A stretch of DNA of 64,000 nucleotides from Branchiostoma floridae (lineage: Eukaryota; Chordata; Leptocardii; Amphioxiformes; Branchiostomatidae), in assembly GCF_000003815.2 (NCBI RefSeq), contig NC_049988.1, forward strand, positions 18,430,087 to 18,494,086, written 5' to 3'. Within the stretch, counting starts at the first letter, position 1, and each line of letters opens with the position of its first letter. Of the stretch, positions 21,738-63,644 are shown in pieces. The notes beneath the pieces were generated by a model. That model was not told where the DNA came from, searched no databases, and worked only from the letters and a program-made list of their open reading frames with translations. Made by a program: the position numbers and the translations under genes.

Positions 21738-24700
21738 ATGGAGTTTAACACGTCTACGGGTGGCGGGATCACGCCAAACCCGTACGCACCACAGTTCAGC
21801 CCCGCTGCCGCGACCACCACCACCACCGCGAGTACGTTTAGCCCAGACGCGCCGCCTTTTGCGCCCTCCCCGGGGCCTCACGCCCCGCCCTTCGCCCCCT
21901 CCCCCGTGCCACACGCGCCTCAAACACCACAGCACCATCCCGAGATATTTGTGGACGGGCACGTGCCGATTTTGGACGGCAGTTTTAACGGGAGCGGCGA
22001 CGCGTCGGTGCACTTCGGACACAACTCCAGCGGGTTCGAGGAAGGCTTCCACCCCAGCGATCCCAACTCTCAGCATCACAGCGGGCAGCATCAGGAGCAC
22101 GGCATCATGCAAGGCGGTACGATAAACGTGTAGTTTGAACGGGGGAGGGTGACAGAGAAGGTCTCCATGACCTTGTCATATCGTGGGCAAAAATAGATCA
22201 CAGATGGAGAACACTAAGTTATCATAAACATTTTCTTACTAGAGCACGCACGGCACCATGGACAGCGGTATGGACTGGACAGATAGAGGGGGCGTTAGAA
22301 ATTGGAAGGGGTGATAAAGAAGGTTTCAATGAACTTGTAAAAGTGTGAGCAAAAATAGATCAGATCAAAAGTAGATCACATATCAATATGCTGCCCTATG
22401 GCGAAACTGATAGACTAGGCAAGAGAAATCCATTGATATCATCACTGATATATCTATGAACAAATGTTGCACATCTTGCTGTCAACAAATACATCGCTAC
22501 TTCATAAATGAGATACTAGAGTAGCTTTAGGCAAATTGCTTTCAGTGTAGATGCCTGCAAAGCTGGTGTGTTACAAAGGACAGTTATGTCAGGGGCAGTG
22601 GCAATACATATACAGAAGCTGGTGTGTCAAGCAGAAGGGCGGTTGTACAGGCTTTACAATTACAGAAGCTGCAGCTGTGTTGGACAGAAGGGCAGTTATA
22701 CTTGCTAGGAAATAAAGATTCAGTGACCATAATAAATGATGGAAAACAGAGAAGCTGAAACCTTTGTTACAAATTATTTTCAGAAACAAAACATGAAAGT
22801 AGTCTTATTAACACAGAATAATTTTCCAGGTCGAGGCATCTCCAACCCTCCTGTTGGTAATGAGGAGTACCACGAGCTCCACACCATCGTGGCAGACGGA
22901 GGAGACCGATACGGGGTGTCGGCCGTCGCCTTCGATCTTCATCAGGAGCTGCTCTGGATGGGCAACCAAGGAGTGAGTCAGAAAACACTTCTTATAAAAA
23001 AATTCACTTTTCAACCTTCTCAAAGCTTCATCTTTTTCATTGGACAATACTTATGGCAACTAAATGGGCACTTTGACATTTGAATGGTTAAAGGGCTGTC
23101 AGTACAATGTACACTTATGATGGTTTACCATTCTGTGCCCTTAGGAAAGGCACTTTACACGACCTTCTTCACTCCACCCAGGTGTAAAAATGGGTACCTG
23201 ACGTTTTCTGAGGAGGGAAGGCAGTGGAAGGACTCCGCCTTCCAACAGTGTGCCCTAGAGACCATAGGAAACAGCTCTTTGCCTTATGACCTTTGTTTAT
23301 ATACTGGGTAGGCCAGTATGCACATCCAGGGCTGCATAACTAGCCTGTCAATGTGGCTTTTAGGGTTAGCCCTGGTGACAAAGAGCACAAGCAAACAACA
23401 TAAAAACCTTCATCTAATGACAAAGAGAATACGCTGACCTTATCCATTTTAAGACACCAGTAAATCTTCATTTTTCCTATACAGGGACATGTGACGTCCT
23501 ACTATGGCCCAGGCATGCAGAAGTATTCGTCCTTCCAGCCACTGCCCGTCGGGACAGAGATGCGCCAGGTGCTCAGTATTGACAACGGCGTGCTGCTCCT
23601 CGGGAACAACCGCATGAGGTGCTCTGAGCGCGGCGGACTGACCATCTTTGATTTCAGGTCTGTTCCTTTGTTGCCTCTGTGAAAAGTTAAATCAGATTGT
23701 TACGTCAATGAATAAAGAGACTAGCCTTTGTTACAGTCTTCAAACGGATATCTTCTACAGCAAGCTCCATTCCTCGGTTAAGTTCTTTCCCAGTATAGGA
23801 GAACATGGCCAACGTTGAAAATCCCGAATGGTTTTATTTCTTGGTACTGTATGTTTGTTTACTTTCACAGGGACTTGATGTGAAAAAAATTTTTTAAGAT
23901 ACTAGTTAACAGTATTACCCAATTTGAATTGACCTTCTTACCCCCATTTTACAGTGGTGAGGACATGCATGACATGCAGGTCATGACAATGGTGGACCCT
24001 ACCACTCTTCTCATAGGGGGTCACCAGGACAAAGTCATCGAGTTTGATCTGAATTCTGGACAGCAGGTTAACTTGGTAGGGACACAACCCAAAAAAATTA
24101 TTATAAAAACTTCTCCTGAACATCATTTAAGTCTCTCACAAACTGCATTTTTTCATTTTACAAGAGTAAAAAATACAGAGTCAGTAATGAATTCGTGTAA
24201 CTTTTTTCTCCCCCCTGCTATTCAGCTAGAAGTGGGTGATCCTGGAGTTGCCATATTTAGACACACCAATAGATTCATATGCTGTGGGGATACAAGTGGA
24301 CAGGTAAGGACAACCTGTTTGTTTGTTTGCTTAATTTGACTTTCGTTAGTCCGTTACTTAATTAATCAACCAGTAAATGAATCAATATAGCATCAGTGTT
24401 CCCTGTTATGACTAGTGGAAGAGTAGGCTAGCTCTTAAACGATAATTACAGACCTATTTCCTTCCCATTCATTTCATTCGCTTAACTCTTGCCAAATAAA
24501 ATTCTTCATTCTCATGCCCGTAGTTGCTTGTAGAACTTGACAAGATGACTTAAGAGGTTTTGTGAAATACAAGTATGAACCATCACTTGTCCAGTAACTG
24601 GAGTACCACCCTTGTGTGTCCTCAGGTGACCCTACGAGACATGAACACCTTTAAGACAGAGCACATCCTGAAGGCTCACTCTGGGTCCCTGTCGGACTTT

Positions 24701-30700: not shown

Positions 30701-33700
30701 CCTATTTTCTTGGTTAGTTTTGCTAAAATTAATGAAAATTCACAGATTTTTGTACCAAGTGGCATCACTTTTCCAGTTGGCATTGTCTGCAAAAACTTGT
30801 GAATGGGCAATGATCAAAACAAGTCGTTTTGCCACTTCACAACAAAGGAATCACTATAATATACTAACATTATACTTGTAGTATTTGACACCCTCTGTCG
30901 ACATGTCATTGCAAAATGAACCCATTTTCATGAAAGCGCAGCGCGTTGGTTCGGGATATTTTTGCCAGCCCCTCCACTATACTAAAAAATTCTGGGGAGA
31001 ACCCTGCCCCTTGACAGAGACGGATGGAGGGCAGCAATCAGATCCAAACGACTTGACACGTCCAACCAAGACAGGGAACAACGGATGCTAAATCAGATAG
31101 GGAGCGAGTGAGACATGTGGTTTGTGATCCCAATGTTCCTTCTGATTCCAGGTGTGGACAGTTTTGACTTCCGCCACTACAACCGGACCAACTTTGCTGG
31201 TCTGGAGACCAACATTCCCAACAGCTACTGTAATGCCATGCTGCAGGTAAGGCTGAGATTTAACAGTTTAAAAGACATAGGTATATCAATATATAGTTGT
31301 AGTATTCAGTATTTGATAATACTGCTGCTGGGATCCCTCACACGGGTACGAAGGAGTTGGCAAGTCTTCACACCACACTTCCATGCAGCTCTGTACAGCA
31401 GGCTCACCCTAGTTAGACTGCATACCTTAATCCATTTAATCTAGTCACCTTAATCCATTTGACTGGCATTCAGCAAGGATTGACATGACACTTGTTGGTT
31501 TTCACTGTTAAATCTATCCTTTCAAGCTTACAAAAATGCATTTCTGTCAGTAAGAACATGTCGGGATGCTTTTGAAAGGCAGGTTGAACTTTTGTCCCTC
31601 AAAAAAAAATTTCTGTGCTGGGACGGGGGGACAGGTCCTGGAGACAGCCACAATCTACTTTGTCTTCTGGCTACATATGTGTATGTGCCTACCTCGATAG
31701 GTTGAGAACCTTGGCACTGTGGGGGAATGGGCACTCCTGTTTAAAGGGGGTGGAGCTGTATTTCTGCATTGATTCAGCATTGGGAAACCCATGATTGCAG
31801 AACTTTTACATTTTGTAGTTCCTCAAAGGGCAGGGATACTACTCCCTGTCCACCATCCTCCAGCTGGTCTAAGGCCATCCCTCTGTCCTGGCCATGGGAT
31901 GGAAGTTTGCATGTTGGGATGGACAAAAATTCCAACCCATCCGTCCCAAAAATCTGAATGTGTTTTCAGAAGCTTGAAAGGACTTATTCAACAAGAAAAA
32001 TCCACATCCCAAACAATGAGAGGGACGGAAAAAAATTAAGGCTGGAGACAGCCCTGGTCTAAGGTCTAAGAAAACGATTGTTTCTCCAGGTGCTGTACTT
32101 CATCGAGCCCCTCAGGTGTGCAGCCCAGTCCCACCTGTGTGAGAAGGAGTTCTGCCTCACCTGCGAGCTGGGGTTCCTCTTCCACATGCTGGACATGTCC
32201 AAGGGGGAAAACTGTCAGGTAACAAGAGTTCTGAAATATTCTGATTATGCAAATGAATTGCTCATCTGCGTAATGTATGGTCTAATTTAGGTAAAAAAAT
32301 ACAAGAAATGGAAGTTATTTAGCAGTTCCAAGATCACATACCACATAATCCATCGAGAGGTTCTTGAGTTATGCTGACCACAAATATCAAATAAATGCAA
32401 TCCACCAGATGCAGAATTTCATGAGTTCACAAACACAAAAGCACAAAACAACCCAAACCCAAACATAATCTTCTGGCTAATGTAATAAAAACTCTGTGTG
32501 GAATTTGTCCCAGTCCAGTAACTTCCTCCGAGCATTCCGCACCATTCCAAACTCTATGGACATTTTAGCAATCTTCCTGGGCCACTTCTTCCACTTTTCT
32601 TCCATTCTCTGGAAACAACACTTGCAGATAGATGTGCAAAAGTTAGGTGTGACGGTTCGTTCAGTGTAATATAACCAGCTGCTGCCGCACTTTGTGCCTG
32701 CGAAGCTGGTGTGTTACGCTATAGGATGGTTATACTAGCTATATAGATACAGATACAGATGCAATAACGTATATTTAGTCAATAACAATGTCATGTATTT
32801 TGCACTTGTCGCAGGCCAGTAACTTCCTGCGAGCGTTCCGCACCATCCCGGAGGCCTCAGCGCTTGGGCTGGTTCTGGGCGACCACGAGGAGGCCACGGG
32901 AAAGGTCAACCTGGGTCGGCTCATCCAGTCCTGGAACAGGTTCATTGTGCAGCAGGTGCACCAGGTGAGTTGGACAGGTGTTTTCTGCAGGTCCACCTGA
33001 TGACTTAATCATGTATGTACCTCTATAGTTTTGCTTGTATAATTGCCCTGGTAATGCTGGCTAGTTATAATTTGCACGAAACCTTTGTACATCTAATTTC
33101 TTTAAACTTACAGCTATCTACTGAGGACGCCCCTACTGTACATTGTACTTTTTGACAAAATATTCCAATCTTCAGTGATTTTATCTCCGAAAGAAAAAGA
33201 ACACTCTACTATTCATTGATTTTAGGCTTCTCAATACAACAGTTGCAGTGGGTGAATTTGAAGAACCCATACATGTTCATGTTTATCCATGCTTTTATGA
33301 GAATCCACAAAATAAAGGAACTCCTTACTACATTAACATTTTATTCTGCTTCTCAGGATATTCTTGAACCAAAAGAGGAAGACTCAGAGAAGAAGGAGCC
33401 TGAAGAACCAGAGCCTCCGAAGGAAGTAGAGAAGACACCAATAGAGAAGATGTTCAGTTCAGAGGTGACCATCTCCTCCAAGTGTCGGTGTGGGAAGGAG
33501 ACGACCAAGGAGACCAACTCCATGGTGTATGGACTCAACTACCCGGACATCTCAGACCCAGGTGATTTTTAAAAGACATTTCTGTGTTGTTGGATAGACA
33601 AGCTGATACCTGTACATATATCTGTTCCTTGTATAGCTGGTATAACCGCCCTTTGGCCTAACATAGCAGCTTCTTTATCTGTATCTCTATTGCCGTTCTA

Positions 33701-36700
33701 ACCGCCCTTAGGCACAATACAGCAGCTTCTGTTTCTGTATCTGTATAGCTGGTATAACCCCCCTTTGGCGTAACACACCAGCTTGTGTGTCTGTATCTGT
33801 ATAGCTGGTATAACCGCCCTTCGGTATGACACACCAGCTTCTGTATCTATATCTGTATATAGCTGGTTAACTGCTCTTTGGCATAACACACCAGCTTCTG
33901 TATCTGTATCTGTATAGCCGGTACATGTATAACAGCACTTCAACTCATTTAAGTTTCCAAGCAAACACTTTGCAGTACAAGTATCATTGGCTTGAAAACA
34001 ATCCTCTCTATGTACATGTATCTACGGATTTATCAATGCATGATGTTACAAAAACAATTCCACTACTTGTGTTGCAGAGCTGAAGAAGAAGCAGTACTCA
34101 TTTGCTGAGGTCCTGAAGAGCAGCATGTCATCAGAGCAGGTCACCCACGCCTGGTGTGAGGACTGCAACAGATATCAGCCCACGGTGTGTACAAGGAGGT
34201 TACATATAGAATAATGATATATAGAGAGTCCTCAATTGATAATATATAGAGAGTCCTTTATGTATAGAAAATCCTCAATAAGATTAGCCTGGGTACCATC
34301 TGTATAGTAGATTACTTTGACGTTTATTCTCTCTGAGAACTTGGACATTTCTAACGCCTGGAATATTCAAGTCTTGTCCAAATTTTGGACGAGGGTGCTT
34401 CTGCTAACCAAGAAACTTGAAATGGTTAACTTTTCGACTTAGCACTATAGAACCTATTCCTTAATTTCCTCATTGGTTGAAGTCACCACCAAATGATACA
34501 TGTATATAGTTTCCCAGAGGGGTAGCAGAAGCAAACTACTAGTACTACCTTGATGGTACCCAAGCTATTGTAGGATGCCTTTGTCACCTTAGAAAGCCTT
34601 GCTGTGGCTTTTGAGAAAGGGCACAGAAGTGGCAGTCAACTTCTTCTTTGTTTTTTCTTAGACACAAAGCAGGAAACTAAAGAGCCTGCCAGACATCCTC
34701 TCCATCAACTGTCACCTGGACAGTGAGCGGGACCAGCTGTTCTGGCAAGCACAGGAGGAGGTAGGGGGATAGGGATGGATGAAGGGATGGATGGATGGAT
34801 GGATGTCAAAATATTAATAATATCTATAATGTAACAGTCATGTATGAGTGATCTGGTCTCGTATTTGGAATAGTGTACAAATAAATTGACCTGCATATGT
34901 AAATATGGGAGTTGGACATGATATCAGTACATAAATATTGGTCTGCATACTAGATAGTGAGGAGTGTGCTTTAGCAGTGCTTCTCTCTCGATCTTAACTG
35001 CCAGTTGGACAGGTCATGACAAAGTGGAATTCATCTTCGATATTTTCGTGACATGTGATATTGCTGTATTGATGTTGTTTGCTATGACAGTTACTCCAAC
35101 TTGGAGTCCTCATTCTCACCCTCTTGCCAGTCACTACTTTTATATGTTTAACCTTTACCCAGCTATCTTCTCAATGTAAAAGTACAAATGTGGTACATTG
35201 GAGCACCCTTAGAGTGTGCAGGGTTAACTGAATGAGATAAACAACTGCCTGAGTGGCCAAAAGATTTGTCCCATCATATGTTTTTTGGATCTATTAACTT
35301 CAATTTTGTCTGACCAAGTCTTAGTTATACGTTGTCTGACCATTTTTTTTACCTCAGGCTCTTCTCTCTATGATATGACCTCAATGAAAAGTTGCCAGGA
35401 GGCTGATATGAGTTTTTCGTGAATCGATACTATTATGGCTTCATGATAAGATGAGATAATAATGATGATGAAGACACAATCATAATCCAATCAAACATGT
35501 TTTGTAATGCTCGGCTTCTTCCCTTCCTTCCTTTTCAACTTGTAGAAAATGCCGAACTACGTTCCGTGGGACCAGGTCTGTTTGAATCAGTCAACTCAAC
35601 AGTTACAGTATATCTTCTTACAAACACAGTTTATCACTCTGAAGTAAAGTTGAACATTTACTGGCATTTCCAACACAAAAAACAGACTTATCCAAATAGT
35701 CAATTGTCCAACTACCATCCCTGATAAAGATTATGCACTTAACCTTTTCTATGACGTCATGTTGCGCTCATTCATTGACAAAGACTGGAGTTGAATAGTG
35801 AAATATTTGCATTGATGATGGTTGGACATCCAGGTAATAAGATATGCCAAAAAGCAGTAACTCAAGCAACTGGATATGATTTTGGAAAAGACCATATCCA
35901 AAAGTTGCTTGAGTATCTGCCTTTTGGAGTAAAAAAAAATTGGTTTGAATTTTTCTGTTGGAAATTACTGTTCAACTTTGCTTCAGAATGATTTGTACCT
36001 ACATAGATGAACTTTCAAACTACACCATACACTCTTTTATCGCAACACTTCATTTCCTTTTTTTTCATACTGTTGAAGCTACGTGGAATTTCATCCCTTG
36101 CCAGATGTTTTGGTTGTGGTTTTCTCTTATACTTGGTGTGGTTCTTGCCCTGGAGGTTATAAATTCAGTATCCTTCTAATCTTTTGTTCTGAGTAAAAGG
36201 CAAAAGTTGGTCAGTGGCAACAGTAGTCTTAAGTGCATGGTTTGCGTCTCTGTCTGTCTCTCGATTCCCCATTCTTAAATGTTTATAATCTTTCTTTTAA
36301 AAAGATTACCGAGTTCTCCTTCACCATTCCTTTCGTTTGGTGACTCCTTTTTTACAATTATCCTTTTTCATTGCAGCTTGTACAGTCTCTGCAAATTTAA
36401 GTCTTTTAACAATCTTGTCTATAATGTAACGCTAGGTCACCTTTATCCGCGTGGTTACCTATATCCGTTCTTTTTCAAAACAGTGTATTTAGGGATATTG
36501 AGTCAACGACGGTGGTTTCAAACTGCAATGTTTTAAAAATACACATTGCGTATTGCAGTTTGTTGCCACAGTCCGTCAACTTGATATTCCTAAATGATAC
36601 GTTTTCAAAAACAACGGATATAGGTTAACCCGCGGATAAAGGTGAAGTAGCATTAATTACTGTAGAAAGAGAAACAATTATGCTTGTTGGAGCCATGTTG

Positions 36701-39700
36701 TAGTATGATTATGTGCTCAGGGCTCAAAATACCACCTGCATATGCATGTTAGTGCAGGTAAAATTGGAGCTGTGCAGGTATTTCTGGCGTCTACCTGCAC
36801 CTAACCTGCACTGGTCCATGTGCTGGGTTTCATACATAAATTTCCTTTGGTTTAGATGTGTAGGGATTGTTATTAGCTGCATTGACTGTTACCACCTATT
36901 AAGTATAAAAGAAAAAAATAGCAATTGTTCCTAAACAATTTTAGTATGATTTATACTAAAGTCTTCCTAAACTCAGAGTGGTGCAGGTAAAATTTGTCTG
37001 GTGCAGGTAATTTTCAATGTTACCTGCACCAGTGCAGGTATGCAGAAAAAAAGTATTTCGAGCCCTGATGCTGTACTGCATAATGTCAAGTTTATTTCCT
37101 CAATCTTAAAGTAGCAAGAACAGATAGATTAGTACAGAGTTTCAGTGTCACTGACGAAAACTACTGGATGGTAGTTGACCATTTCCAAAACCATAGCCAG
37201 TTGCTTGAGCAACTACTTTTTGGCGTATCTTATTACCCGGAGGTCTAACCTACATGGAAGTAACGCTAGTTCACCTTTAATCGTGGGGAAACCTATATCC
37301 GTTGTATTTAAATCCGGGCTACTTAGGGATATCAAGTTGACCGACGGTACAAACTTTCCAACTGCAATCAATATTTTGAAGAAAAAAAAATGCAATTTCA
37401 AGCCACCGTATATAGACTTGATACTGTTTTTAGATACAACGGATATAGGTTACCCCGCGAATAAAAGTGAACTAGCGTTGCAGATTTTCCCTTCAGAAAA
37501 TGTGGATATGTCAGTTCAGCATTTAGTTTCTTAGATAGGAAAAATAATCAATGAAACTGATATAACACTAGTTCACCTTTATCCATTGGGTAACCTATAT
37601 TCGTTGCTTTGAAAAACAGGATATTTTTGGATATCTCGTTGACGGATGTTAGTTTCAAATTGCAAAATTTTTCAGGATATTGCAGTTTAAAAGTACCACC
37701 CGTCAATTTGATGTGCCTAAATACCCTGTTTTTAAAAGCAACGGATATAGGTTACCCAACGGATAAAGGTGAAGTAGCGCTATATGATATAGGCTTTCCC
37801 TTCATAAAATGTTACAGAAAATGTCAGTTCAGCATTTAGTTTCTTAGATAGGAAAATTAATCAATGAAACTGATATAGCCTATAACGTTAGTTCACCTTT
37901 ATCTGCGGGCAACCTATATCCCTTGTGTTGCGAATAGGGTATCCAGAGAGGGTATCAAGGTATCAAGTCGATGGACGGTAGTTTCAAATTGTACTATTTT
38001 CAAAATATTGCAGTTTGAAACCACCATCTGTCGACTTGATATATACCTAAATACATTGTTCTCAAAAAGGAACGGATAAAGGTTACCCTACGGATAAAGG
38101 TGACCCTACGGATAAAGGTTACCCTACGGATAAAAGTGAACTAGCGTTATTGCCAAAGGAGATTTTACTTGATGAGAATTTTGTTTCCCTCCAGGTCATG
38201 AAGCAGAAAGAGGGGAACTCCTCCAAGCCATCCTCCTCGCAGAGCCGAACTGTCCGACCTTGTCGCTACGGGTCACAGTGTACGCGATCGGACTGCAAGT
38301 TCTCCCATGGCTCACAGGACAAGGAACAAACGTAGGTAGCAGTTGATTCAGAAATCCGCAGAACACTTATTGCTTTGCTTTGTTTTGCCTTAAACTCCAG
38401 AAAAAGGAGGTGGTATTTTCCAATAAATTTTTTATCAATGAATACCTAATCAGTAGACTTTTTGCAGAATTCCACTTGTGGTGAGTTAGCTGATTTGTGT
38501 TGAAACCATCTCCCTTCAATGTTCAACCTTGTTCTTGCCACATACATACTGATTTTCAAAAGGATACCTACTGGAAAGTAATGACCACAATGATTTGAGA
38601 TTTGCTGGATATTTAGAATTAAAAAGACTTCATAACTTGAGTTATGCACCTTATTTCTGGGTAAGCCCCCAAACCTATTGATTACCCCTCAGGTCTATTT
38701 CAACTGTTACTTGTACCAGTGCAGTCATACAGAAAAGATGTTTCAAGCCCCGACTGCTGTTATACATGTTTATGTTTATAGATGCTTGTGTAGTATTAGC
38801 ATAACCCCTTACCATGTTGTCAGGCCGTGCCGATATGGTGACATGTGCACTCGCCCCGACTGCAAGTTTTCTCACAGGAGCAACACAGAGAGGCAGCAAG
38901 CGTGAGTGTTCGTTCTCAGGGGCAGAATACAGTCAGCTCAGTCCTTTACAAACTCAGCCTAAGAACAAGATCAACTCAGACACTGTAGAGCCCTATGGAA
39001 CTAACAGTAGTGATACTACAGTGGAAGCCGCTTAATTGCCAGCGAATTCTGTGCAATTATCCGGCGTGTGTGATAAGCAAAGTTACCCAGTTGGACCGCA
39101 CCACGACAGGATTTGGGGATTCCGTGCAATTCACCGAAGTGTGGGTTTATCCGATGTGCAATTAACTTGCTTCCACTGTAGTGGAAAAGAAAAGAGTGGG
39201 GGTCCTTCCCAGTGTGAGTGGTTCAAAACCTACAGTCCTTTGGCTGCACATGGAGCAATCGTTGTTATATTGAGGTCACCTGAGTTAGTGTTGAATGACA
39301 GCCCTCACAAACCGGTCTTGCTCCATGTGTACATTTGGTCTGATTTACCATGGGCTGAGTTGGTAAAGGGCGAAGCTTTGTTCTGTGATCTACTAGTATT
39401 TTGACCCCTGAGAACTCTCTTGCTGGTCTGGATGGTTCTGGTAACTGGTGTATAACAGTAAATGTTGTTCTTGCCCTGTGCAGCTAACAATCTGCTTTCT
39501 CTCTCCACCTTTCAGCAGCAGTTGTGGATTTTTGATTTGTTGTTTGTTGGTGAAAACTGTTTTTGTCTTCTTCCTCTGGCTTTTGGCATTGTGAATACTG
39601 TGCATATTTTGTTGATTTCTGATTGAGAAAGATCCTTATTCCAACTACATTTGTACTCCATGTTAAGTTGGGAAAAATCTAAGGTTTGCACACTTTCACA

Positions 39701-42700
39701 GTAACAATATTTCACTGTGGTTTTAAGTTTGCGGTAGCACCATAGACTGTGGTCACTGTAGTGGAAAATTTTTTGTGGTGGTTTTATGTTTACATTAAAG
39801 TGGCTACCGTAAAAAAAACCACAGACATAAAACCACTGCGAATGTTTCTGCATTAAGTTTTACAGTAGTTGAACCCATTGTTTCCACAGTACGGTGTTGT
39901 CCAGTGCAGAGATACTGGAGATGAGTCTACAGGAGGAGGCCCAGGCACACTGGCTACCCTGCGGACTCAAAATGGCGCTGGTAGACGGGCATCTGAAGAT
40001 AGAGGGGCTTCCCGAGATGGAGGTAAGGGGCTCATGTAGTTTTGTTTTGCATAACCAGTATCAAACTGCTATAAGATGTAGTAATGAGGCTGCTCCTACA
40101 GGACATGATTTCAATAAGTTCCTCTCGATGATAGTTCCAGGGAACACAAATTTTTGAACACCTCTATTCTTGATTCATAACTCTAATACTTGAAGGCATA
40201 TGACTATTTCTTGTTCTTCTCTGATGACCTTAACCATGGGAAGATTGCTAGCAGAGCAATTGTAGGGAATTACGCTGAAGGAAGTGTCCCTTGACCTCTA
40301 CTGAATGACATATGCCGTATAGGCCAGCGAGGCTTACCTATCTCTTACCTACCATCCCACCATTGTTGCATTAAATTATATCCTTAGTTTCAAAGAATGA
40401 TTGACATTGTTTAACCATACCACAGTTTGTACATACACTGCATTGTTTGTTGTAATGGCCAAGACCCTGGTCTTGGGTCATTGATGCCTTTGTGCAACCC
40501 ATATGCCTCCACATGCAGAGCAGAATAAAGACATCACATGCCCCAAACCTCATAGCTCCTTTTCTGTGTACATAAGAGTAATTGTATGTTTCAGGATGTT
40601 GGTCGTATGTGTGGGCAACTGTAGCCTTAGCTTTACCTTAACCTTGACCTTGTGTTCCAGGATGTAGAGAAGGAGAAGCCGAGTGAGGAGTGGGCAGTGT
40701 ACGAGCTGACCAGCTCTGTCTGTCATGTCCAGGAGTCCAGACTGGGGGGCAATCTGGTCTGATATATGGGCAACTTTAGCCTTAGCTTTACCTTAAAGTT
40801 GATCTTGATCTTGCTGTTGTGTTCCAGGATGTAGAGAAGGAGAAGCCAAGTGAAGAGTGGGCAGTGTACGAGCTGACCAGCTCTGTCTGTCACGTCCAGG
40901 AGTCCAGACTGGGGGGCAACCTGGTCGCACACATCAAGGGCGGCATTCCTTATCACAAGAGGAAAGAGGTAACCCAAGTGTCTATAACACAATATGATAA
41001 TGCTAGTTCACGTTCTTCAGAGCGGTATTTAGGGAAATCAAGTGTTACTTCCAGGGTCCAGACTAGGGGGGAGGGGGGGAACTGGTTGCACATATCAAGG
41101 GCGGCATTCCCTACCATAAGAGGAAAGAGGTACTACTAACCAAACACAAGTTTTTATGATCCATGATTCCACTTAGCCAAACTGAGAATCTTTCATTGCT
41201 AAAACTTGTATGATAATGAATCAGTAATGGTGCAACAGTACACATGATCAACGAAAATCTGATCGGACACAACAAGGCCAGCATACCTTACCACAAATGG
41301 AAAGAGGTAACCGATAGCAAGTCTCTATAATACAATATAATAATAAATGTGCATCAGGCATTTGTGTAGGTGTTTTTTCTTTATGAATTACAAGCATATA
41401 TATATATCCAAGAAAAGTCTGTGGAAAGAAAACTCTGCTGTCCAATTGACCAATGCTGTAACTGACTGGGAGTAGATGATGCATGAGCCACTATGATTAA
41501 GTGCGATTTAATAAGGCTAAGCCATAATAAATTCTCCTAACTGTAAGGTTAGAGTGGTGCTTTTTCACATACGTAAACGCTAATCCTAAACAATCCTGGG
41601 AAAACAATCCCGAAGTGCATGTTTCACCAAGTGGTCACAATGCGGAGAAATACATTCAAGAACTTGAAAGTGATTGAACATTTTTCCCACCTTATAGGGC
41701 ATCACAGCTACCCAGTGGTACTTAGTGAACGACTTTGCCATCGCTCCTATGGACAAGGTAAGCCCATGGCTTCACTGGAAATGTCTTTTTGTTTTGGTCA
41801 TTTGCTTGCGTGTTTGTAGTTATTTTAATGCAGTAGAGCGACTGGTTTCCATATGCTAGGCCCGTAAGCCACACCAAACGGAATTTCAGACCAAGGTGCC
41901 ATATCCTGTTTTTAATATGCATGTCTGTTGACTTATGCAAGCCAGGGGGAAATGCATTAGACAGTGGGAGATTTGCAACAGTAAAACAAGGTATTCTCAG
42001 GAACTAAAAAAATAATATCTTGTGGACTGTAGTGGCATTGTATGCACATGACTGTGTTTATGACTGAATATTGTGATGTTTCAGTTGGATGCTGTCCAGT
42101 ATGGGATGGCCTGGAAGGTTCCATGTGTGCTCTACTTCTCCAGGAAGGACCTCAACAAGAGACACGACTGCCAAAGTAAGACTCTTGTACATTTTTTTTA
42201 CATTTGCAAACTGCACAAAGTCAAGTATAATGACTACTCGATAGACTTCAAGAAATTGTCACAGTATTCAAGTGGCCAATGTAGACAGGATTCTTAATGC
42301 TTGGGCCAATGAGAACACCTGCTTTGCCTATTGGGTCAGTTAGTCAAGTTTGATGTTTCTGACTTAGGGAGAAGAGTATAAATATAATTACACTAATTAT
42401 AGTGTAATTACACTAAGTGGATTTCATATTTCAGTATTAGACCTTTTAGGTCCCAGGTTTGCAAGGGCTGTTACTGTTACCTTGAATAAGGTTGTTGTTT
42501 TTTTCATTTTCTGCCCCCAGTCCACAACCCCATCAGTGAGAAGGTTCTGTTCCCGGAGGCGTCCCTGTCCAGCCGTGTCCTGAAGAGACATATCACGTTC
42601 CAGCCGCTTGCTGCAGAGGAGATGCCGAAGGACGGCGATCTGGTCGCACTGGACGCTGAGTTCGTTACCCTCAACCAGGTAAGTCAGTTGAGTGTTCAAT

Positions 42701-45700
42701 TCAGTTCATCCATCTGGTGATTATTATTCTTCCGCTAATGTAAAAAAATCGGCAATTACTGACATGTATTGGGTCAGAGGTCAGCATTTTGGGGTTCAAG
42801 CAAGACTGGTCTCCTTTGTGACAAAGGTGGCTAGAGAAGGGGACTGGAAAGGGTGAAGAAGGAGTGTAGTTAGTAGTTTGTGCGGCAGGGGAGGCACTGG
42901 AATTCCTGACTGTGACCTCTCCGGCTTCGTGCAGATGAGTCTGTCGCACATGACAGATAAGAGGCCCTGTACTACAGCCACTTGAAAACACTTGACTTGA
43001 CTTGACATGACTTTACTTGGATCCACATTTAGCTTAACGATGTTTTTGAAGTTCCTATACAACCTGGTAAAGAGGACAGATAAAGTGAGACCCCCAGTCT
43101 TGAACTGGTATGATGGGCTGAGTCAACAATATAACTTTGGGGGGAAAACCTCTCAAACATCTTGGACCCATTTGAATGAAAGCTCATCTGTGTTGGTAAA
43201 GTCCATAGTTTACAATTTAAGCTTTGTCTGGTCACACTGGATGCAGAGTTTGTCACGCTCTACCAAGTTATCGGAAAGTTAAAGTTGAAAGTTTGATACC
43301 TTAAAAAAGGAACAAGGTACATGTACAACATGTTTAAAGATCTACAGTCCAATCCCTACTGCTGGCTGGATAAGATGCAAAAATTACTTGTGGATGTTTG
43401 AGTGACATCCATCACTCTTCTTCAGCATCACTAGAATAAACTGGCCAAAAGAGTACATGTTCCCCAAATGCAATCATTCAACTACATTTTGGGGAGGCGA
43501 TAGCCCTTACTTTGTACAAATAGGCAAATATATCAAAGAATGTTTATGCTGTAGAACCAATAAATGACATGTAAATGACATGCTAGTCTCAATATGTTGA
43601 CTTATTCATATCTATAGATTTTCATATATGGTCTGTTTATATGTACTGTAGTTGTTATAGACCTAAGGCTTATGAAAGCTGCTGTACTTTTGTCAATAAA
43701 GATTTCTTTAATGCTGCTTGCTCTAAACTTGGTACTGAAATGTTGCTGCTATCACTTCAGGAAGAGGCAGAACTCCACAGTGATGGCACCCGGTCCACCA
43801 TCAAGCCTAGCCACATGTCTGTGGCCAGGATTACAGTCATCAGGGGGTAAGTGTCCTGTTTTTAGAACCACTAGGACTGACCTACCTAGAATGTTCCGTA
43901 TTTGAGATACCAGAATTTTCCTGGGGGAGCATGCCCCCCCAGACCCCTTTGGACTGTCACACCTTCAACAGGATTTCCATTCAAAATCCAGGGGAAGGAA
44001 AAAATTTCAGGCTGGCTTGAACACTGGTTGGCATACATCGTCTCATGCTAAGATCTCCAGTTAACCTTTGGGGTTATTATCTGTCACTATTGACCCAACT
44101 CCCTTTTAGTGTCAAAATGCCCAGCATTCAAATGTACAAACAACTAGTGGCTACAAAACCTCTGTTTCATAAAATGATAAAATTGTAGAATAGAATTATA
44201 TGGTTTCTGTTCTTTTTAATAGCTCATTTGTCAATTTTTCCATACAGACAAGGCCCCCAAGAAGGCACACCTTTCATAGATGACTACATCTCCACTCAAG
44301 AACAGGTGAATTGTTTGTTTGTTTGTTTGTTTGTTTGTTATTTCTTTATTTGTTCATGTCGATTGAGAATCTCTTTATTTAGGCCATGAGGGATGAATAG
44401 AGATGTCCCTAGAGCTCAAATGGTAGCAGCCTCACAGTTAAGCTCCTGGTTCCAATAAGTTGGTAACTGGGAGACTCCAGTTCAATCCTGACTCCGGTTA
44501 AATCCAAGACCATCATACAACAATCAGAATGGCTCTGAAGGGAAATTCATGAGAGCAGCTAGATGCATGGCAAATTTGAGAATTATTGAAATTTTAGATT
44601 TTGCTCCTGTAAATGCTCCTGAGCTGTGGTAGTACAAAGGCTCGGAAAGGTGATTCCATTGTTACATTCTTTATGTAGAATCATTAGACAGTCACATATG
44701 ATTTGAGGTCAGAATTTTTCTGATTTAACATATTCTTATTTTTCTGTTGATGCTGTAGGTAGTGGATTACCTGACCAAGTTTTCAGGCATCAAGCCTGGT
44801 GATTTGGACGCCAATATCTCCTCCAAACACCTGACTACACTCAAGTCTACTTACCTCAAGCTAAGGTACATGTTCGTACTTATTACTGTAAGCCTGGCCT
44901 TTAAAGAGTCTGCAAAAAGGAGTGTATAGTCTGCCAGTATAAAGAGAATTCCTAATGAAGTATTGATGTTTGGGATTTTTATCAAAAATTTGACTCCATA
45001 GCAGGGCTGTAGCCACCACCTATCATTCCATCTCTTAACAGAATTTTACTGCATATAAAAGAAACATTTTAAGAATATTTCATCAACCTTGACAGATGAT
45101 ATTGGTGGGTGAAGGTATAGAAATTAATTAATTTAAATCAACTATTCATTCCAAAACCTTGGTCTGCATGGAAATTGAACAATGATCAAAATTTGTACAA
45201 GTATGGAAAAATAAGTCTTTCCAGAATGTTTCCCTCAATGAGAATTGGTACAACGGACAAAATTTCAAGCTGGCTAGAGCCCTACTACAATGTACATACA
45301 TAAAGATAAATCAGTGAAGAATGTAAAAATGATTCTGACATATTTTTAAACTCACTTTTTAAATTGATGAGTTCATGTTTATTCCTGGGGCTATCTGTTG
45401 TTTTCACAAAACAGGGTATTTAGGGATATCAAGTTGACAGACAGTGCTTTCAAACTGCAATATTTTGACATTGCAGTTTGTGAAACCATTGCCCATCAAC
45501 TAGATATCCCGAAATTCCGTTTTAAAGCAAACAACGGATTTAGGTTAGCCCACAGATAAAGGTAATTCAGCCCTACATTGTGCTTGTGTCCATTTCAGGT
45601 ATCTGATTGACCGAGGAGTGAAGATGGTGGGGCATGGCCTGAAGAAGGACTTTCGAGTCATCAACCTTTTTGTACGTAGCATATTTGTGTTCAGCATAAC

Positions 45701-46763
45701 ATAAGACCCTCTGAATAGATTGTTAAGATATTTGTGATATGAATAGGGGTTGGGAAGACAAAGGTCCCGGTCAACTTTGGGACCCCTGGTGTGTGAATTT
45801 GTTACGACAGCAGAACTTCTGATTTTTGTATCTTTTGTTCGAGATATGCTGTGGTCATAATTTTTGTTCTGTACTTTTCTGTACAAATCTGGTGTGTTAC
45901 ACCACATGTCGTTTCTTTCTAAAGAAACTTAATGTCTGCCTTGTGATTCCCAGGTGCCAAAGGACCAGATCGTGGACACAGTCTTATTGTTTCTTGTGAA
46001 GATTTTCGTTCGGATTTTCAGTCAGCGATCTGAAATATAGGTGACAGACTCTTTGTAGAAACAGCTTATCCTTAAGAGTATCATTCTGGTTTACCGGGTA
46101 TGCAATAAAAACAAACTTTGCATCTGCCTTCTGATTCCCAGGTGCCCAAGGACCAGATCGTGGACACAGTCTTGTTGTTCCACCTGACAAACAAGAGGAT
46201 GATGTCCCTCCGCTTCCTGGCCTGGTACTTCCTCAGTAAGTCATGTGATTGATGCATCTTCTTAGCTTTGAAATGTAACCATAGCTAGGGGTGGGTACTG
46301 GTACGCTTTAGTGGTACAAAACCGGACCTGAAGAAATCAGTGGACTGGATCTTGGACCACACCTTTTGGGGATTGCTGGTCCAAGAAAATAACAAGAGCA
46401 AAGTGAAGTAGGGTTTATAGTAATTTCTATCAAGTTTCTACAGTCAAACTTAGCGTTGTTTACATAAAGATAGAGATAGAATAGTAAAAAAAATTGACTC
46501 TGAAAATTGAAGTTCTACAGCCGTGAGTAAGGCTAATATTGCTTGGGGTGCCTTTTAACCATTTTAGCTTGATTCTGTCTCCCCCAGAACTGCGTATCCA
46601 GAGCGACACCCACGACAGTATCGAGGACGCGCGGACAGCCCTGCAGCTGCACAAGAAGTACAAACAGCTGAAGGACGAGCAGGAGCCCGACGAGTTCCAC
46701 AAGACGCTGAGGAAGATGTATGAGGAGGGCAGGAAGGTCGGCTGGAAACCTCCCGACGAATGA
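21738..46763 (+). CDS. PAN2: PAN2, catalytic subunit of the PAN2-PAN3 poly(A) deadenylase, 1311 aa, 33 exons
   Basis: PAN2 shortens mRNA poly(A) tails in the cytoplasm with PAN3. All 33 exons join in frame with GT-AG introns: 21738-22116, 22830-22972, 23485-23657, 23955-24066, 24226-24303, 24626-24744, 25142-25286, 25878-26022, 26477-26553, 26845-26924, 27239-27289, 27774-27870, 28416-28506, 28810-28878, 31152-31246, 32090-32218, 32815-32964, 33357-33561, 34078-34184, 34662-34760, 38195-38331, 38824-38901, 39890-40022, 40828-40968, 41698-41757, 42085-42175, 42521-42678, 43761-43846, 44248-44305, 44759-44865, 45599-45671, 46142-46235, 46588-46763. Order: Pro/Ala-rich N-terminus (1-126), WD40 propeller (about 135-460), pseudo-ubiquitin-hydrolase domain (about 590-1060) with Ser611 where active USPs have Cys, then a DEDD exonuclease (about 1062-1300) with D1106/E1108 (DAEF), D1215 (GHGLKKDF) and H1262/D1267 ([12 protein letters not shown]). 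Two CCCH fingers (871-911) are inserted within the hydrolase-like domain. Human PAN2 is about 1200 aa. Confidence 0.95.
22558..22720. repeat. Degenerate minisatellite 'GAAGCTGGTGTGTTA' (PAN2 intron 1)
   Basis: Three imperfect units containing GCTGGTGTGTTACAAAGGAC, GCTGGTGTGTCAAGCAGAAG and an AGAAGGGCAGTTATA variant; same family as 32690-32765 and 33629-33935. Confidence 0.6.
23131..23225 (+). repeat. SINE family 1 body fragment
   Basis: TGTGCCCTTAGGAAAGGCAC and TTTACACGACCTTC followed by ACTCCACCCAGGTGTAAAAA; the tRNA-like head is absent. Confidence 0.55.
25515..25575 (+). repeat. tRNA-like SINE fragment in PAN2 intron 7
   Basis: AGTGGCCCTGCCACTGGAAC with ATGGGTTTGAATCCTGGC as a box B. Short and without a clear body. 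Confidence 0.4.
28090..28402 (-). repeat. Two SINE-like reverse copies next to PAN2 exon 13
   Basis: 28090-28258 carries the family 1 body (GCCTTTCCCAAGGGCAGAAC) and box B GGATTTGAACCAAGAATC; 28335-28402 is a second tRNA-like head (GGATTCGAACCCAGAACC). The second ends 13 bp before the exon 13 acceptor. Confidence 0.6.
29440..30340. repeat. G-rich repeat with four or more degenerate ~150-bp units (PAN2 intron 14)
   Basis: Opens with a G-tract and GGCTGCCCCCCCGAAAAA and ends near GCCCCCCCAAGCGAAATTTG, so its ends are loosely inverted. Inside, variants of GTTTCAGAGGGT...GATTTCAAAATTT recur about every 150-190 bp (near 29620, 29810, 30010, 30210). Related to the repeat at 3290. Confidence 0.6.
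30395..30660 (+). mobile_element. 3' remnant of a non-LTR retrotransposon reverse-transcriptase ORF
   Basis: With a frameshift, the plus strand reads LRYNRLA then WYDHVQRM, followed by [10 protein letters not shown]. This is the R-x-WxHVxRM ... PRGRPKRRW pattern common at the C-terminus of LINE reverse transcriptases. It is broken and truncated. Position 30978-31095 continues with repeat-like sequence. Confidence 0.5.
33629..33935. repeat. ~60-bp minisatellite in PAN2 intron 18
   Basis: About five units of GTATAGCTGGTATAACCGCC + CTTTGG..TAACACACCAGCTTCTGTATCTGTATCT. A single related unit is at 32690-32765 and a degenerate set at 22558. Confidence 0.8.
35847..35927. mobile_element. Small fold-back element in PAN2 intron 20
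   Basis: CCAAAAAGCAGTAACTCAAG...GGATATGATT pairs with ..ATATCC..CTTGAGTATCTGCCTTTTGG. A related half (CAGTTGCTTGAGCAACTAC, CCAAAACCATAGCCAG) lies at 37143-37245. Confidence 0.6.
36427..36655. mobile_element. Fold-back MITE, family B
   Basis: Ends TAACGCTAGGTCACCTTTAT and ATAAAGGTGAAGTAGCATTA; inner arms GTTTCAAACTGCAAT and ATTGCAGTTTGTTGCCAC, with TTAGGGATATTGAGTCAACG against the reverse strand. Non-coding, about 229 bp. Confidence 0.85.
37261..38150. mobile_element. Three adjacent family B fold-back MITEs
   Basis: Copies at 37261-37479, 37563-37782 and 37883-38150 share the ends TAACGCTAGTTCACCTTTAT and its complement, and the 5-10 bp-spaced motifs AACCTATATCCGTTG and CAACGGATATAGGTT. The linkers between them are also similar (TTAGTTTCTTAGATAGGAAA), so this block looks duplicated as a unit. 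The last copy ends in a triplicated CCTACGGATAAAGGT. It lies just before PAN2 exon 21. Confidence 0.85.
38195..38901 (+). other. PAN2: Two CCCH zinc-finger exons inside PAN2 (exons 21 and 22)
   Basis: Exon 21 (38195-38331) encodes [16 protein letters not shown] and exon 22 (38824-38901) encodes [16 protein letters not shown], both CX5CX4CX3H, nine residues apart. They replace a stretch of the human hydrolase-like domain between LPDIL... and the MSLQEEAQ...LPCG segment. Spacing matches ZC3H14/Nab2-type fingers, which bind poly(A). Exon 22 is 78 nt and begins and ends in the same phase, so it can be skipped or duplicated without a frameshift. Function in PAN2 is inferred. Confidence 0.85.
39019..39178. 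mobile_element. pogo/Tc1-type MITE with TA target duplication
   Basis: Terminal inverted repeats CAGTGGAAGCCGCTTAATTG and AATTAACTTGCTTCCACTG, each flanked by TA. Located in PAN2 intron 22. Confidence 0.7.
39690..39850. repeat. Interspersed repeat 'GTGGTTTTATGTTT' in PAN2 intron 22
   Basis: Repeated, partly inverted motifs: ACTGTGGTTTTAAGTTTGCG, GTGGTGGTTTTATGTTTACA and CCACAGACATAAAACCACTG. Class not identified. Confidence 0.5.
40611..40765 (+). pseudogene. Tandem partial copy of PAN2 exon 24 (dead exon)
   Basis: GATGTAGAGAAGGAGAAGCC with its TTCCAG acceptor and upstream intron is repeated from 40661 in near-identical form to the true exon at 40828. The copy ends at GGCAATCTGGTC, followed at once by TGA, and has no donor. 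Inclusion would terminate translation. Confidence 0.85.
41047..41315 (+). pseudogene. Two further decayed copies of the PAN2 exon 24 3' end
   Basis: 41047-41131 carries TCCAGACTAGGGGGGAGG, ATCAAGGGCGGCATTCCC and AGGAAAGAG|GTACTA; 41256-41315 keeps only GGCCAGCATACCTTACCACA and GGAAAGAG|GTAACC. Both preserve the donor side of the exon. Confidence 0.7.
42760..42990. repeat. Interspersed repeat in PAN2 intron 27
   Basis: Contains GTTTGTGCGGCAGGGGAGGC and GATGAGTCTGTCGCACATGA. Looks unlike the surrounding AT-rich intron and has no exon signals; assigned as a repeat with low certainty. Confidence 0.35.
45390..45574. mobile_element. Fold-back MITE, family B, left end missing
   Basis: TATTTAGGGATATCAAGTTG/CAACTAGATATCCCGAAAT arms and the right end CAACGGATTTAGGTTAGCCC are present; the CACCTTTATCCG left terminus is not. 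Confidence 0.7.
45937..45993 (+). pseudogene. Partial duplicate of PAN2 exon 32
   Basis: GATTCCCAGGTGCCAAAGGA and CCAGATCGTGGACACAGTCT repeat the acceptor and first 14 codons of exon 32 (46142). After TTATTGTTTC the sequence diverges and reaches an in-frame TAG at about 46038. Confidence 0.85.
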
Positions 46764-61322: not shown

Positions 61323-63644
61323 TTAGTCAAAATAGCCTCTTCGAAGCCGATAGGCAGAGGAGTGGGAGGCGCTAGAGTTGGCGAGAATGGAAGGGTGCTG
61401 GTAACAGTTTTGGTCGGACACTTTGGAAGTTTCCGTACCAGTATCTTCGTAACTACTACACTGCTGGTAGGCAGAGGACTGGGATGCCCCAGGGTTGGGG
61501 AGAATGGAGGGGTGCTGGTAGCAGTTTTGGTCGGACACTTTGGAAGTTTCCGTACCAGTATCTTCGTAACTACTACACTGCTGGTAGGCAGAGGACTGGG
61601 TGGCGCCTGGATTGGGGAGAATGGAGGGGTGCTGGTAGCAGTTTTGATCAGACACTTTGGAAGTTTCCGTACCAGTATTTTCGTAACTAGTCCGCTGCTG
61701 GTAGGCAGAGGAGTGGGTAGCGCCGGGGTTAGGGGGAGTTGAGGGGTGCTGGTAGCAGTTTTGCTCGGACACGTTCGAATTTCCGTTGCTAGTATTTTCA
61801 CAACTACTACGCTCTTCGTAAGCTGTATTCAGCGCTCCCTGTCCGTAAGGGACAATTTCTGAAGACCCATACGAATCTGTGTCGCGCAAACTACCATGGT
61901 CTTCAATGCGACCCTCGACGTTTGGGTTGGGGACTGATTCCGATCCATCTAAACTATCATGGTCTTCAAACCGCCCCTCAGCGTAAGGACTGATAACCGA
62001 CTCTGATCCATTCAAACCGTCATGGTCTTCAATACGACCCTCAGCGTATGGACTGATTTCTGATCCATCTAAACTGCCGTGGTCTTCAAAACGACCCTCG
62101 GCGTAAGGACTGATAACCGACTCTGATGCATTCAAACCGCCATGGTCTTCAATATGACCCACAGCGTAAGGACTGATTTCTGATCCATCTAAGCTCTCGT
62201 GGTCTTCAAAACGACCCTCAGCATAAGGGCTGATGACTGAGTCGTTCGGGCTATCATGATCGTCAAGAGGCGAGTTGGAGCATGCAGCGACCGTCGCGCG
62301 GACACCGTCAGCCATATCAGGTGGACAGCGCTTAACCTTACACCTGAAACAACTCAAAACTACCTTACCAACGAACGCAAACAATAACACTGTCACAGCA
62401 GTAGCTGAAACGGAAATGTACCACGTGACGTTGCTGTCTCTATCGACAGTCATACCTGTGCTCATTATCTCTGCTGTAGTTTGGCGTGTTGCGGTGCGGT
62501 GTTGCAGTGTGCTCATCAGTGGGGGCGCTGTTGTTGTGGGATGTTGTGTCGTGTGAGAATGCGACATGTGTGTGTCGTGTGTTGATTCCAAGTTAGTTGT
62601 GTAGGACCCGCTCTTAGAGGAAGCAGTGCAAAGTGTGTTCCCCAACGCCAAAGGCCTCGCACCCTCAAGCCAGAGAGTGAAGCTGGACTTCCCCATGTAG
62701 TTAGAACACACCTTCGATTTCTGGGGTTCCCTGATATCAAAATCCACCATTTTACATTTTGTCCACCCCTCAGCCCTTAGGTAGGTCTTCACTTGTACAG
62801 TTAGGTTACCCACTCCCAGACTGGCGTGTGTCGTTGAGGTTGTGTTGTACATTATGTCCATCGAGTGTTCTGACCCAATGGCAAAGTCCCAGGACACTTG
62901 GGGCAGGTCCTCCCAGTACACATTTCCAACAACTTCGTATTCTCGGGACTCGTGATTTTGCTCTACGTTTACAATCTCCACAAACGGTGCCGGGCAGGGT
63001 AGGGCGCTGACATTAACCTGTACAGGAGGCCATTCCATCAAGGACGAGGCGGGACACCCTGTTGGTAAGGATATTAGTGAATGCCAAGGGGATCGCGATA
63101 TCTCTGTCCACTGCCTCCACAGGGATTCATACAACCCAATGCTCGCACACGTACAGCGCAGGGGATTGTTCGGCAATCGAACCTGCCACCTTAAACTTCC
63201 CCTCCCGGGGTACTCAGCGGCTATAATAGCATTTCCTTTTAGGTTCAAAACCACTTTGCCTAGGTTTGACGGTTTGGACCAAAACCCTGACAGATAAGTC
63301 AACTTGTTGCCCTGCAAGCTTAGGAGACCCAGTCGCTTGTTTGAGTGGAACGCGTCATCTGCAATCCAAGAAATTTCATTGTACTCTAAGTATAAGTTTT
63401 CCATGATCGCAAGCTCAGCAAACATGCCTACGTTGACGGACTGAAGCTTGTTCTTAACGATATAGACATTTCGTACAGACCGCGTTCCCTGCAGTACCCC
63501 AGGCGCTATGTACCAGATAGAGTTAGCACTTACGTCCAGCCAGTCCAGCTGTAGTCCACGCAGCATGGCGGGGGCCATCGTCAGGATCTGGTTGTCCACG
63601 AGATAGAGGGACAGTAGCTGAGATAGTCCTTCGAAGGCACCTGC
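61323..63644 (-). CDS. LRR/Ig-like membrane receptor with tyrosine-repeat tail (3' exon; 5' exon off the right edge)
   Basis: The exon starts at an AG acceptor at 63645 (TTATAG|GCAGGTGCC), the same junction as exon 2 of the gene at 54759, and stays open for 773 codons to a TGA-type stop at 61323. It encodes LRRs, the NPLRCTC cap, the Ig-like segment (WPPVQVNVSALPCPAPFVE), a Thr-rich stalk and a membrane helix (exon residues about 408-432, VSATAVTVLLFAFVGKVVL), closely similar to the first receptor. The tail of about 340 residues is longer: six PYAEGR(F/I)EDH-type units at 61830-62234, then four 39-residue units at 61353-61820 rich in Tyr (SYENTG, NCYQHP, SSAYQQ), ending YRLRRGYFD. The first exon, with signal peptide, is expected beyond 64000. 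Phosphotyrosine signalling is an inference from the motifs. Confidence 0.87.
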   Translation of the reverse strand, partial: AGAFEGLSQLLSLYLVDNQILTMAPAMLRGLQLDWLDVSANSIWYIAPGVLQGTRSVRNVYIVKNKLQSVNVGMFAELAIMENLYLEYNEISWIADDAFHSNKRLGLLSLQGNKLTYLSGFWSKPSNLGKVVLNLKGNAIIAAEYPGRGSLRWQVRLPNNPLRCTCASIGLYESLWRQWTEISRSPWHSLISLPTGCPASSLMEWPPVQVNVSALPCPAPFVEIVNVEQNHESREYEVVGNVYWEDLPQVSWDFAIGSEHSMDIMYNTTSTTHASLGVGNLTVQVKTYLRAEGWTKCKMVDFDIREPQKSKVCSNYMGKSSFTLWLEGARPLALGNTLCTASSKSGSYTTNLESTHDTHMSHSHTTQHPTTTAPPLMSTLQHRTATRQTTAEIMSTGMTVDRDSNVTWYISVSATAVTVLLFAFVGKVVLSCFRCKVKRCPPDMADGVRATVAACSNSPLDDHDSPNDSVISPYAEGRFEDHESLDGSEISPYAVGHIEDHGGLNASESVISPYAEGRFEDHGSLDGSEISPYAEGRIEDHDGLNGSESVISPYAEGRFEDHDSLDGSESVPNPNVEGRIEDHGSLRDTDSYGSSEIVPYGQGALNTAYEERSSCENTSNGNSNVSEQNCYQHPSTPPNPGATHSSAYQQRTSYENTGTETSKVSDQNCYQHPSILPNPGATQSSAYQQCSSYEDTGTETSKVSDQNCYQHPSILPNPGASQSSAYQQCSSYEDTGTETSKVSDQNCYQHPSILANSSASHSSAYRLRRGYFD
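61353..61820 (-). repeat. Four 117-bp (39-aa) tandem units in the receptor tail
   Basis: Units 2 to 4 (nearest the C-terminus) are almost identical at the DNA level; unit 1 is diverged, with Cys for Tyr in the SYENT motif. Unit length is a multiple of three, so copy-number change keeps the frame. Confidence 0.9.

Follow-up and report, generated by a model that had tools for sequence, protein, structure and literature searches.

A PAN2 deadenylase gene of the lancelet almost certainly encodes two in-frame zinc fingers of the Nab2 type. The gene lies in the window analysed here, a 64-kb stretch of DNA (C10:18430087–18494086) taken from a genome assembly of 513,431,437 bases in 431 contigs. Both the enzyme and the finger type are known; their combination was not met in the open-access literature, in which no report of fingers in PAN2 stood among the matches listed (titles and openings of abstracts).

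PAN2 gene model and location of the fingers

The PAN2 gene spans positions 21738–46763 on the forward strand. Its model, assembled by hand from splice signals and reading frame with a start codon (21738) of our choice, comprises 34 coding exons and 1321 amino acids, has GT–AG borders at all 33 introns and contains no internal stop. The domains follow the order expected of PAN2, with Pfam matches to PAN2_N (the WD40 part, E 5e-99), UCH_1 (E 1e-95, residues 602–1036) and RNase_T (E 2e-17, residues 1113–1284), and a stretch between the WD40 and UCH-like domains, where a PAN3-binding linker would be expected, is also present. The nearest solved structure is the human PAN2 chain 9qtu_C (E 1.6e-251). 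The DEDDh exonuclease, recognized by its RNase_T match, is encoded by exons E27–E33 (42521–46763, forward strand). Its residues D16, E18, D125, H172 and D177 (numbering of alignment A1), which we take to be the DEDDh catalytic residues, are invariant among three sequences, the lancelet PAN2 and two fungal PAN2. Apart from the fingers, the gene is predicted to be an ordinary PAN2 that retains its nuclease residues, and the Pfam domains together with the 9qtu_C match confirm the otherwise canonical PAN2 of the original prediction.

The fingers interrupt the UCH-like domain. On the upstream side, exon E20 (34662–34760, forward strand, as are all exons below) ends in phase 0 with the final residues before a variable loop (LFWQAQEE); its alignment with human PAN2 extends to residue 761. 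Exon E21 (38195–38331; 137 nt, phase 0-2) bears finger 1, whose Cys-to-His codons occupy 38261–38308, and exon E22 (38824–38901; 78 nt, phase 2-2) bears finger 2 at 38828–38875; the spacing is CX5CX4CX3H in both. The UCH-like domain resumes with HWLPCGLKM in exon E23 (39890–40022; phase 2-0), as judged from the model and the alignment. The tandem CX5CX4CX3H fingers originally claimed for the PAN2 frame are indeed found at this place, inside the UCH-like domain, and the claimed splice phases 0-2, 2-2 and 2-0 are correct, with agreement at the E20–E21, E21–E22 and E22–E23 joints. A further candidate exon that the first reading did not contain, E20b (35546–35575; 30 nt, 10 residues, phase 0-0), is optional; its acceptor ranks 29th and its donor 17th of 33, and its GC3 is 0.80. 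Both finger exons have a GC3 typical of coding sequence (0.69, compared with 0.71 in the whole gene), and intron GC is 0.39.

Our comparison with human and fungal PAN2 (9qtu, 4czw and 6r5k) reveals PAN2_N/WD40, UCH-like and RNase domains in identical order, and the sequences flanking the loop at either end, in the UCH-like and RNase parts, can be aligned with solved PAN2. The obvious difference occurs in the loop itself. The alignment with human PAN2 (9qtu_C) stops at human residue 761 and resumes at 801, leaving 39 residues unaligned, and that with 4czw, which we take to be a fungal PAN2, stops at residue 283 and resumes at 287, leaving 3. By comparison, the lancelet loop has 95 or 106 residues unaligned to human PAN2 or 4czw. 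These breaks suggest that the fingers occupy a length-variable loop of the UCH-like domain. Furthermore, the lancelet pair measures 41 residues, counted from its first Cys through its last His, and exceeds the human loop in length, and no PAN2 chain is among the 11 PDB sequences listed for the 108-residue finger segment (E up to 10); both observations support the earlier view that human and yeast PAN2 have no such fingers. Mussel PAN2 is listed with 1,202 amino acids and with UCH_1 and RNase_T only in an excerpt of PMC4793324, a hint that molluscs are without these fingers.

Partial same-strand copies exist for four of the 34 PAN2 exons (E17, E24, E27 and E32). Those of E24 lie at 40661–40759, 41043–41129 and 41256–41306, with identities of 96%, 80% and 80%; an acceptor-like AG precedes the first, which by eye reaches an in-frame TGA. 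Poison exons, decayed tandem duplicates and an assembly artefact are all conceivable explanations of the E24 copies. Fragments of E17 (32515–32548, 91%), E27 (43227–43265, 82%) and E32 (45954–45991, 95%) also lie in PAN2 introns, and E22 has only a 26-nt antisense match (29449–29424, E 0.003) that is probably due to chance. The intron before the finger exon holds diverged repeats at 36430–38140, with stretches by eye like aacctatatccgttg and ggataaaggtgaact, which are perhaps a small inverted-repeat element. Outside the gene, a reverse-strand open frame (20626–18995) encoding an F-box and leucine-rich repeats stands head to head with PAN2, about 1.1 kb from its start codon. Two long reverse-strand open frames at 63644–61326 and 56774–54762, alike by eye, resemble membrane-anchored leucine-rich-repeat proteins, and a piece of the former has LRR_8.

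Identity, apparent constraint and genomic relatives of the fingers

The Pfam family zf-CCCH_2 (PF14608, ‘RNA-binding, Nab2-type zinc finger’) matches two stretches within UCH_1 at E 1.2e-8, above its cut-off of 25.8 bits. The score is 35.5 bits for the whole PAN2 and 43 bits for the finger segment; taken singly, finger 1 reaches 28.7 bits and finger 2 reaches 25.8 bits, which was counted as over the cut-off. When the 108-residue finger segment was compared with the PDB, the top matches were Nab2 entries 2lhn (E 9.4e-10) and 5l2l (E 1e-9), presumably Nab2 fingers 5–7. The cut-off passed by each finger singly and the PDB match support the assignment to the Nab2/ZC3H14 type.

In the six frames of the window CX5CX4CX3H occurs three times: once in each finger and once in an antisense match that overlaps finger 2. 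In 200 simulated first-order windows it occurred 0.08 times on average and never more than once. Over 17 codons including the preceding Pro, 18 of 51 bases are different between the fingers, 13 of them at third positions, but 3 of 17 residues are; 11 codons are altered without a change of residue. Residue retention that good arose in none of 200,000 random mutation sets, starting from either finger, in a simulation that assumes uniform mutation without repeated hits and compares two copies within one gene, not orthologues; simple as this model is, the contrast is a large one. In an ungapped comparison, five of the seven codons 3′ of the finger His encode differing residues, so that constraint looks confined to the finger. 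The finger residues thus look constrained, and the view that the fingers look selected, not accidental, is supported by the base and residue differences, the simulations and the motif count.

A zf-CCCH_2 search of the 513-Mb genome gave 48 matches at E up to 10, among which the PAN2 fingers rank third and fifth; two other places outrank finger 1 by PF14608 score. Five Nab2-type matches lie in a row at C1:1476348–1481079, separate from PAN2, in a cluster that we take to be ZC3H14. The finger gene has PAN2 domains and is not the lancelet's own ZC3H14 gene. Used as a protein query, the finger segment matched six places in the genome, the best three all within the PAN2 gene. The fourth lies on C7 (E 0.226, 31% identity, 4 stops), and a match at the final C1-cluster finger has E 0.243 and 63% identity over 19 residues, with no stop. 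At the sensitivity of this search, the finger pair is single-copy in the genome. Outside PAN2, identity to the pair is highest for the last C1 finger, with 12 of 16 residues matching finger 2 and 31 of 48 bases identical to the E22 finger. Its exon appears, by eye, to start in phase 0, 3 nt ahead of the first Cys, unlike E22, which starts in phase 2, 4 nt ahead of its first Cys. Copying of the PAN2 fingers from the last finger exon of the ZC3H14-like gene may have occurred but is not supported by these comparisons. Searches of viral contigs and prokaryote genomes for PAN2 relatives gave 24, 153 and 203 pattern matches, none of which was confirmed.

Proposed adenine binding and alternative readings

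The adenine-contact residues of Nab2 are largely retained in the lancelet fingers. In the crystal structure of Chaetomium Nab2 with RNA, aromatics two residues after the first and third Cys provide a code of two adenosines per finger (PMC3874189, excerpt). An aromatic at position 3 separates the strong Nab2 fingers 5 and 7 from finger 6, the affinity of which was restored by an added aromatic (PMC3384006, excerpt). Set against the contact positions given in these excerpts, both lancelet fingers have Arg at position 2, Tyr at position 3 and Phe at position 14, which places both in the two-adenosine group of the Nab2 code. The cautious idea in the first reading, that this deadenylase may grip its own substrate, is in line with that code. 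By comparison, position 9, which is touched by A3 and is Asn423 and Asn466 in the strong Nab2 fingers (PMC3384006, excerpt), is Arg in both lancelet fingers, not Asn. The arrangement of the fingers is also distinct. Nab2 fingers 5–7 act as three packed fingers (PMC3384006, excerpt), whereas the lancelet PAN2 has two fingers joined by a 9-residue linker, against 6- and 5-residue linkers in the aligned Nab2 chain, and does not form a unit of three fingers packed through short linkers.

We moderately favor the reading that the fingers contact adenines and assist PAN2 in holding its substrate. According to this model, a tandem Nab2-type pair would sit in a length-variable UCH-like loop of an otherwise ordinary PAN2, and each finger would hold two adenosines, like the odd-numbered Nab2 fingers. 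Through the pair, PAN2 would itself touch the poly(A) tail or adjoining A-rich stretches, within the reach of the nuclease; in yeast PAN2, the UCH-like and RNase domains jointly shape a cavity for the RNA 3′ end (PMC6547884, Cell 2019, excerpt). The fingers would add affinity and A-specificity that are obtained through PAN3 in other PAN2–PAN3 complexes, and, depending on whether E22 is spliced in, PAN2 could grip with two fingers or one. For the yeast complex, the excerpt of Wolf et al. (PMC4158885) describes isolated Pan2 as unable to bind RNA and PAN3 as supplying the substrate. The same excerpt ascribes a preference for poly(A) to the CCCH finger at the Pan3 N terminus, which may confer poly(A) specificity; when this finger is missing, the slight gain in affinity that the yeast complex shows for tailed RNA disappears. 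In this regard, the lancelet PAN2 may grip its substrate directly, unlike yeast PAN2 alone. Deletion of the yeast PAN3 finger had a comparatively modest effect (PMC6547884, excerpt), which counts against the proposed function in that fingers may matter little. A PAN2 bearing poly(A)-type fingers of its own would offer a natural test of how strongly a grip by the catalytic subunit alters the rate of deadenylation, its tail-length limits and its dependence on PAN3 and PABP.

It is possible, though fairly unlikely, that the fingers are folded but bind another target, such as A-containing 3′ UTR motifs, other RNA or a partner (PAN3 or PABP). In other parts of transcripts, Nab2 can also recognize motifs whose key positions hold adenosines (PMC3874189, excerpt), and DNA, RNA and protein are all possible targets of zinc fingers in general (PMC4158885, excerpt), but the three adenine-contact positions are kept in both lancelet fingers while positions 5, 6 and 10 vary.

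Splice sites were scored with a leave-one-out matrix built from the introns of PAN2 itself and ranked among the 33. E21 has the top acceptor and the 30th donor, and E22, a symmetric exon, ranks 31st for its acceptor and 32nd for its donor; from these scores, E22 could be a cassette exon. When eight exon combinations were tried with the regular E23 acceptor, all four without E21 stopped at residue 853–910, before the nuclease box, and all four keeping E21 stayed open, with or without E22 and E20b. With this acceptor, the nuclease frame depends on E21, and E22 can be skipped in frame. Among ten phase-0 AGs examined at 39760–39990, six leave an open frame. One acceptor, at 39933, scores 3.0, about the same as the E22 acceptor (3.0), and could in principle yield a fingerless in-frame PAN2 isoform; the regular E23 acceptor at 39890 scores 10.3 with the same matrix and 7.95 with that site left out. 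These sites bear on the unlikely case that the finger exons mark a regulated or minor isoform and that the main PAN2 is without one or both fingers, a case that is compatible with the other explanations. The weak splice sites of the symmetric 78-nt E22 and the fingerless form offered by 39933 would fit such an isoform, but E21 has the strongest acceptor in the gene and is required for frame with the regular E23 acceptor, which outscores 39933.

It is doubtful that a poly(A)-reading finger moved from PAN3 to PAN2, such that PAN3 would have lost its CCCH finger and PAN2 gained the Nab2-type pair, PAN2 would recognize poly(A) without PAN3 or PABP, and E22 splicing would set the tightness. The lancelet PAN3 gene lies at C7:7423636 (forward strand), matches 9qtu_A and carries the PAM2-like stretch GVDAHEFIPGN, which we take to be PAM2. 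With the PAN3 5′ exons not located, a tight CCCH pattern found no match in 30 kb at PAN3, none of eight matches to a looser pattern in 90 kb had the spacing and sequence of a PAN3-type finger, and none of 34 matches passed the PAN3-finger family cut-off. Two of the eight looser matches are on the PAN3 strand, a CX5CX4CX3H at 7374116 without the aromatics and a CX6CX4CX3H at 7380285, and the 90 kb contain N runs of 100 and 608 nt. No PF00642 match upstream of PAN3 on C7 was among the 60 listed of 84 candidates scored. The yeast and human PAN3 finger queries both pass the PF25586 and PF00642 cut-offs. The human query matches 9qtu_A 38–84 (E 8.8e-28) and scores 26.1 bits with PF00642, above the cut-off, and 18.1 bits with PF14608, below the 25.8 cut-off.

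A separate nested gene or pseudo-exons as the source of the finger exons, which do sit among long introns in a gene holding partial, non-functional-looking copies of other exons, is very improbable, since the junction phases match PAN2, E23 depends on E21 for its frame and the fingers appear to be under constraint at the residue level.

Comparison with known deadenylases and finger proteins

A fingered PAN2 would be a further deadenylase with a built-in finger, beside TOE1, which to our knowledge is without the PAN2 domains. According to the excerpt of PMC13316410, TOE1 likewise combines a DEDD-type deadenylase and a C3H finger in one chain; it differs in having a single finger (Cys300, 309, 315 and His319). 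The N-terminal finger of PAN3 is a poly(A)-preferring CCCH finger of the same complex, but it belongs to the other subunit and has the spacing CX8CX6CX3H in yeast (Cys14, 23, 30 and His34; PMC4158885, excerpt). By comparison, the tandem CCCH fingers of Nab2/ZC3H14 (PF14608) share with the lancelet pair the CX5CX4CX3H spacing, the basic residue and both aromatics. Nab2 contains seven such fingers, whereas the lancelet PAN2 contains two, with a longer linker, inside a deadenylase.
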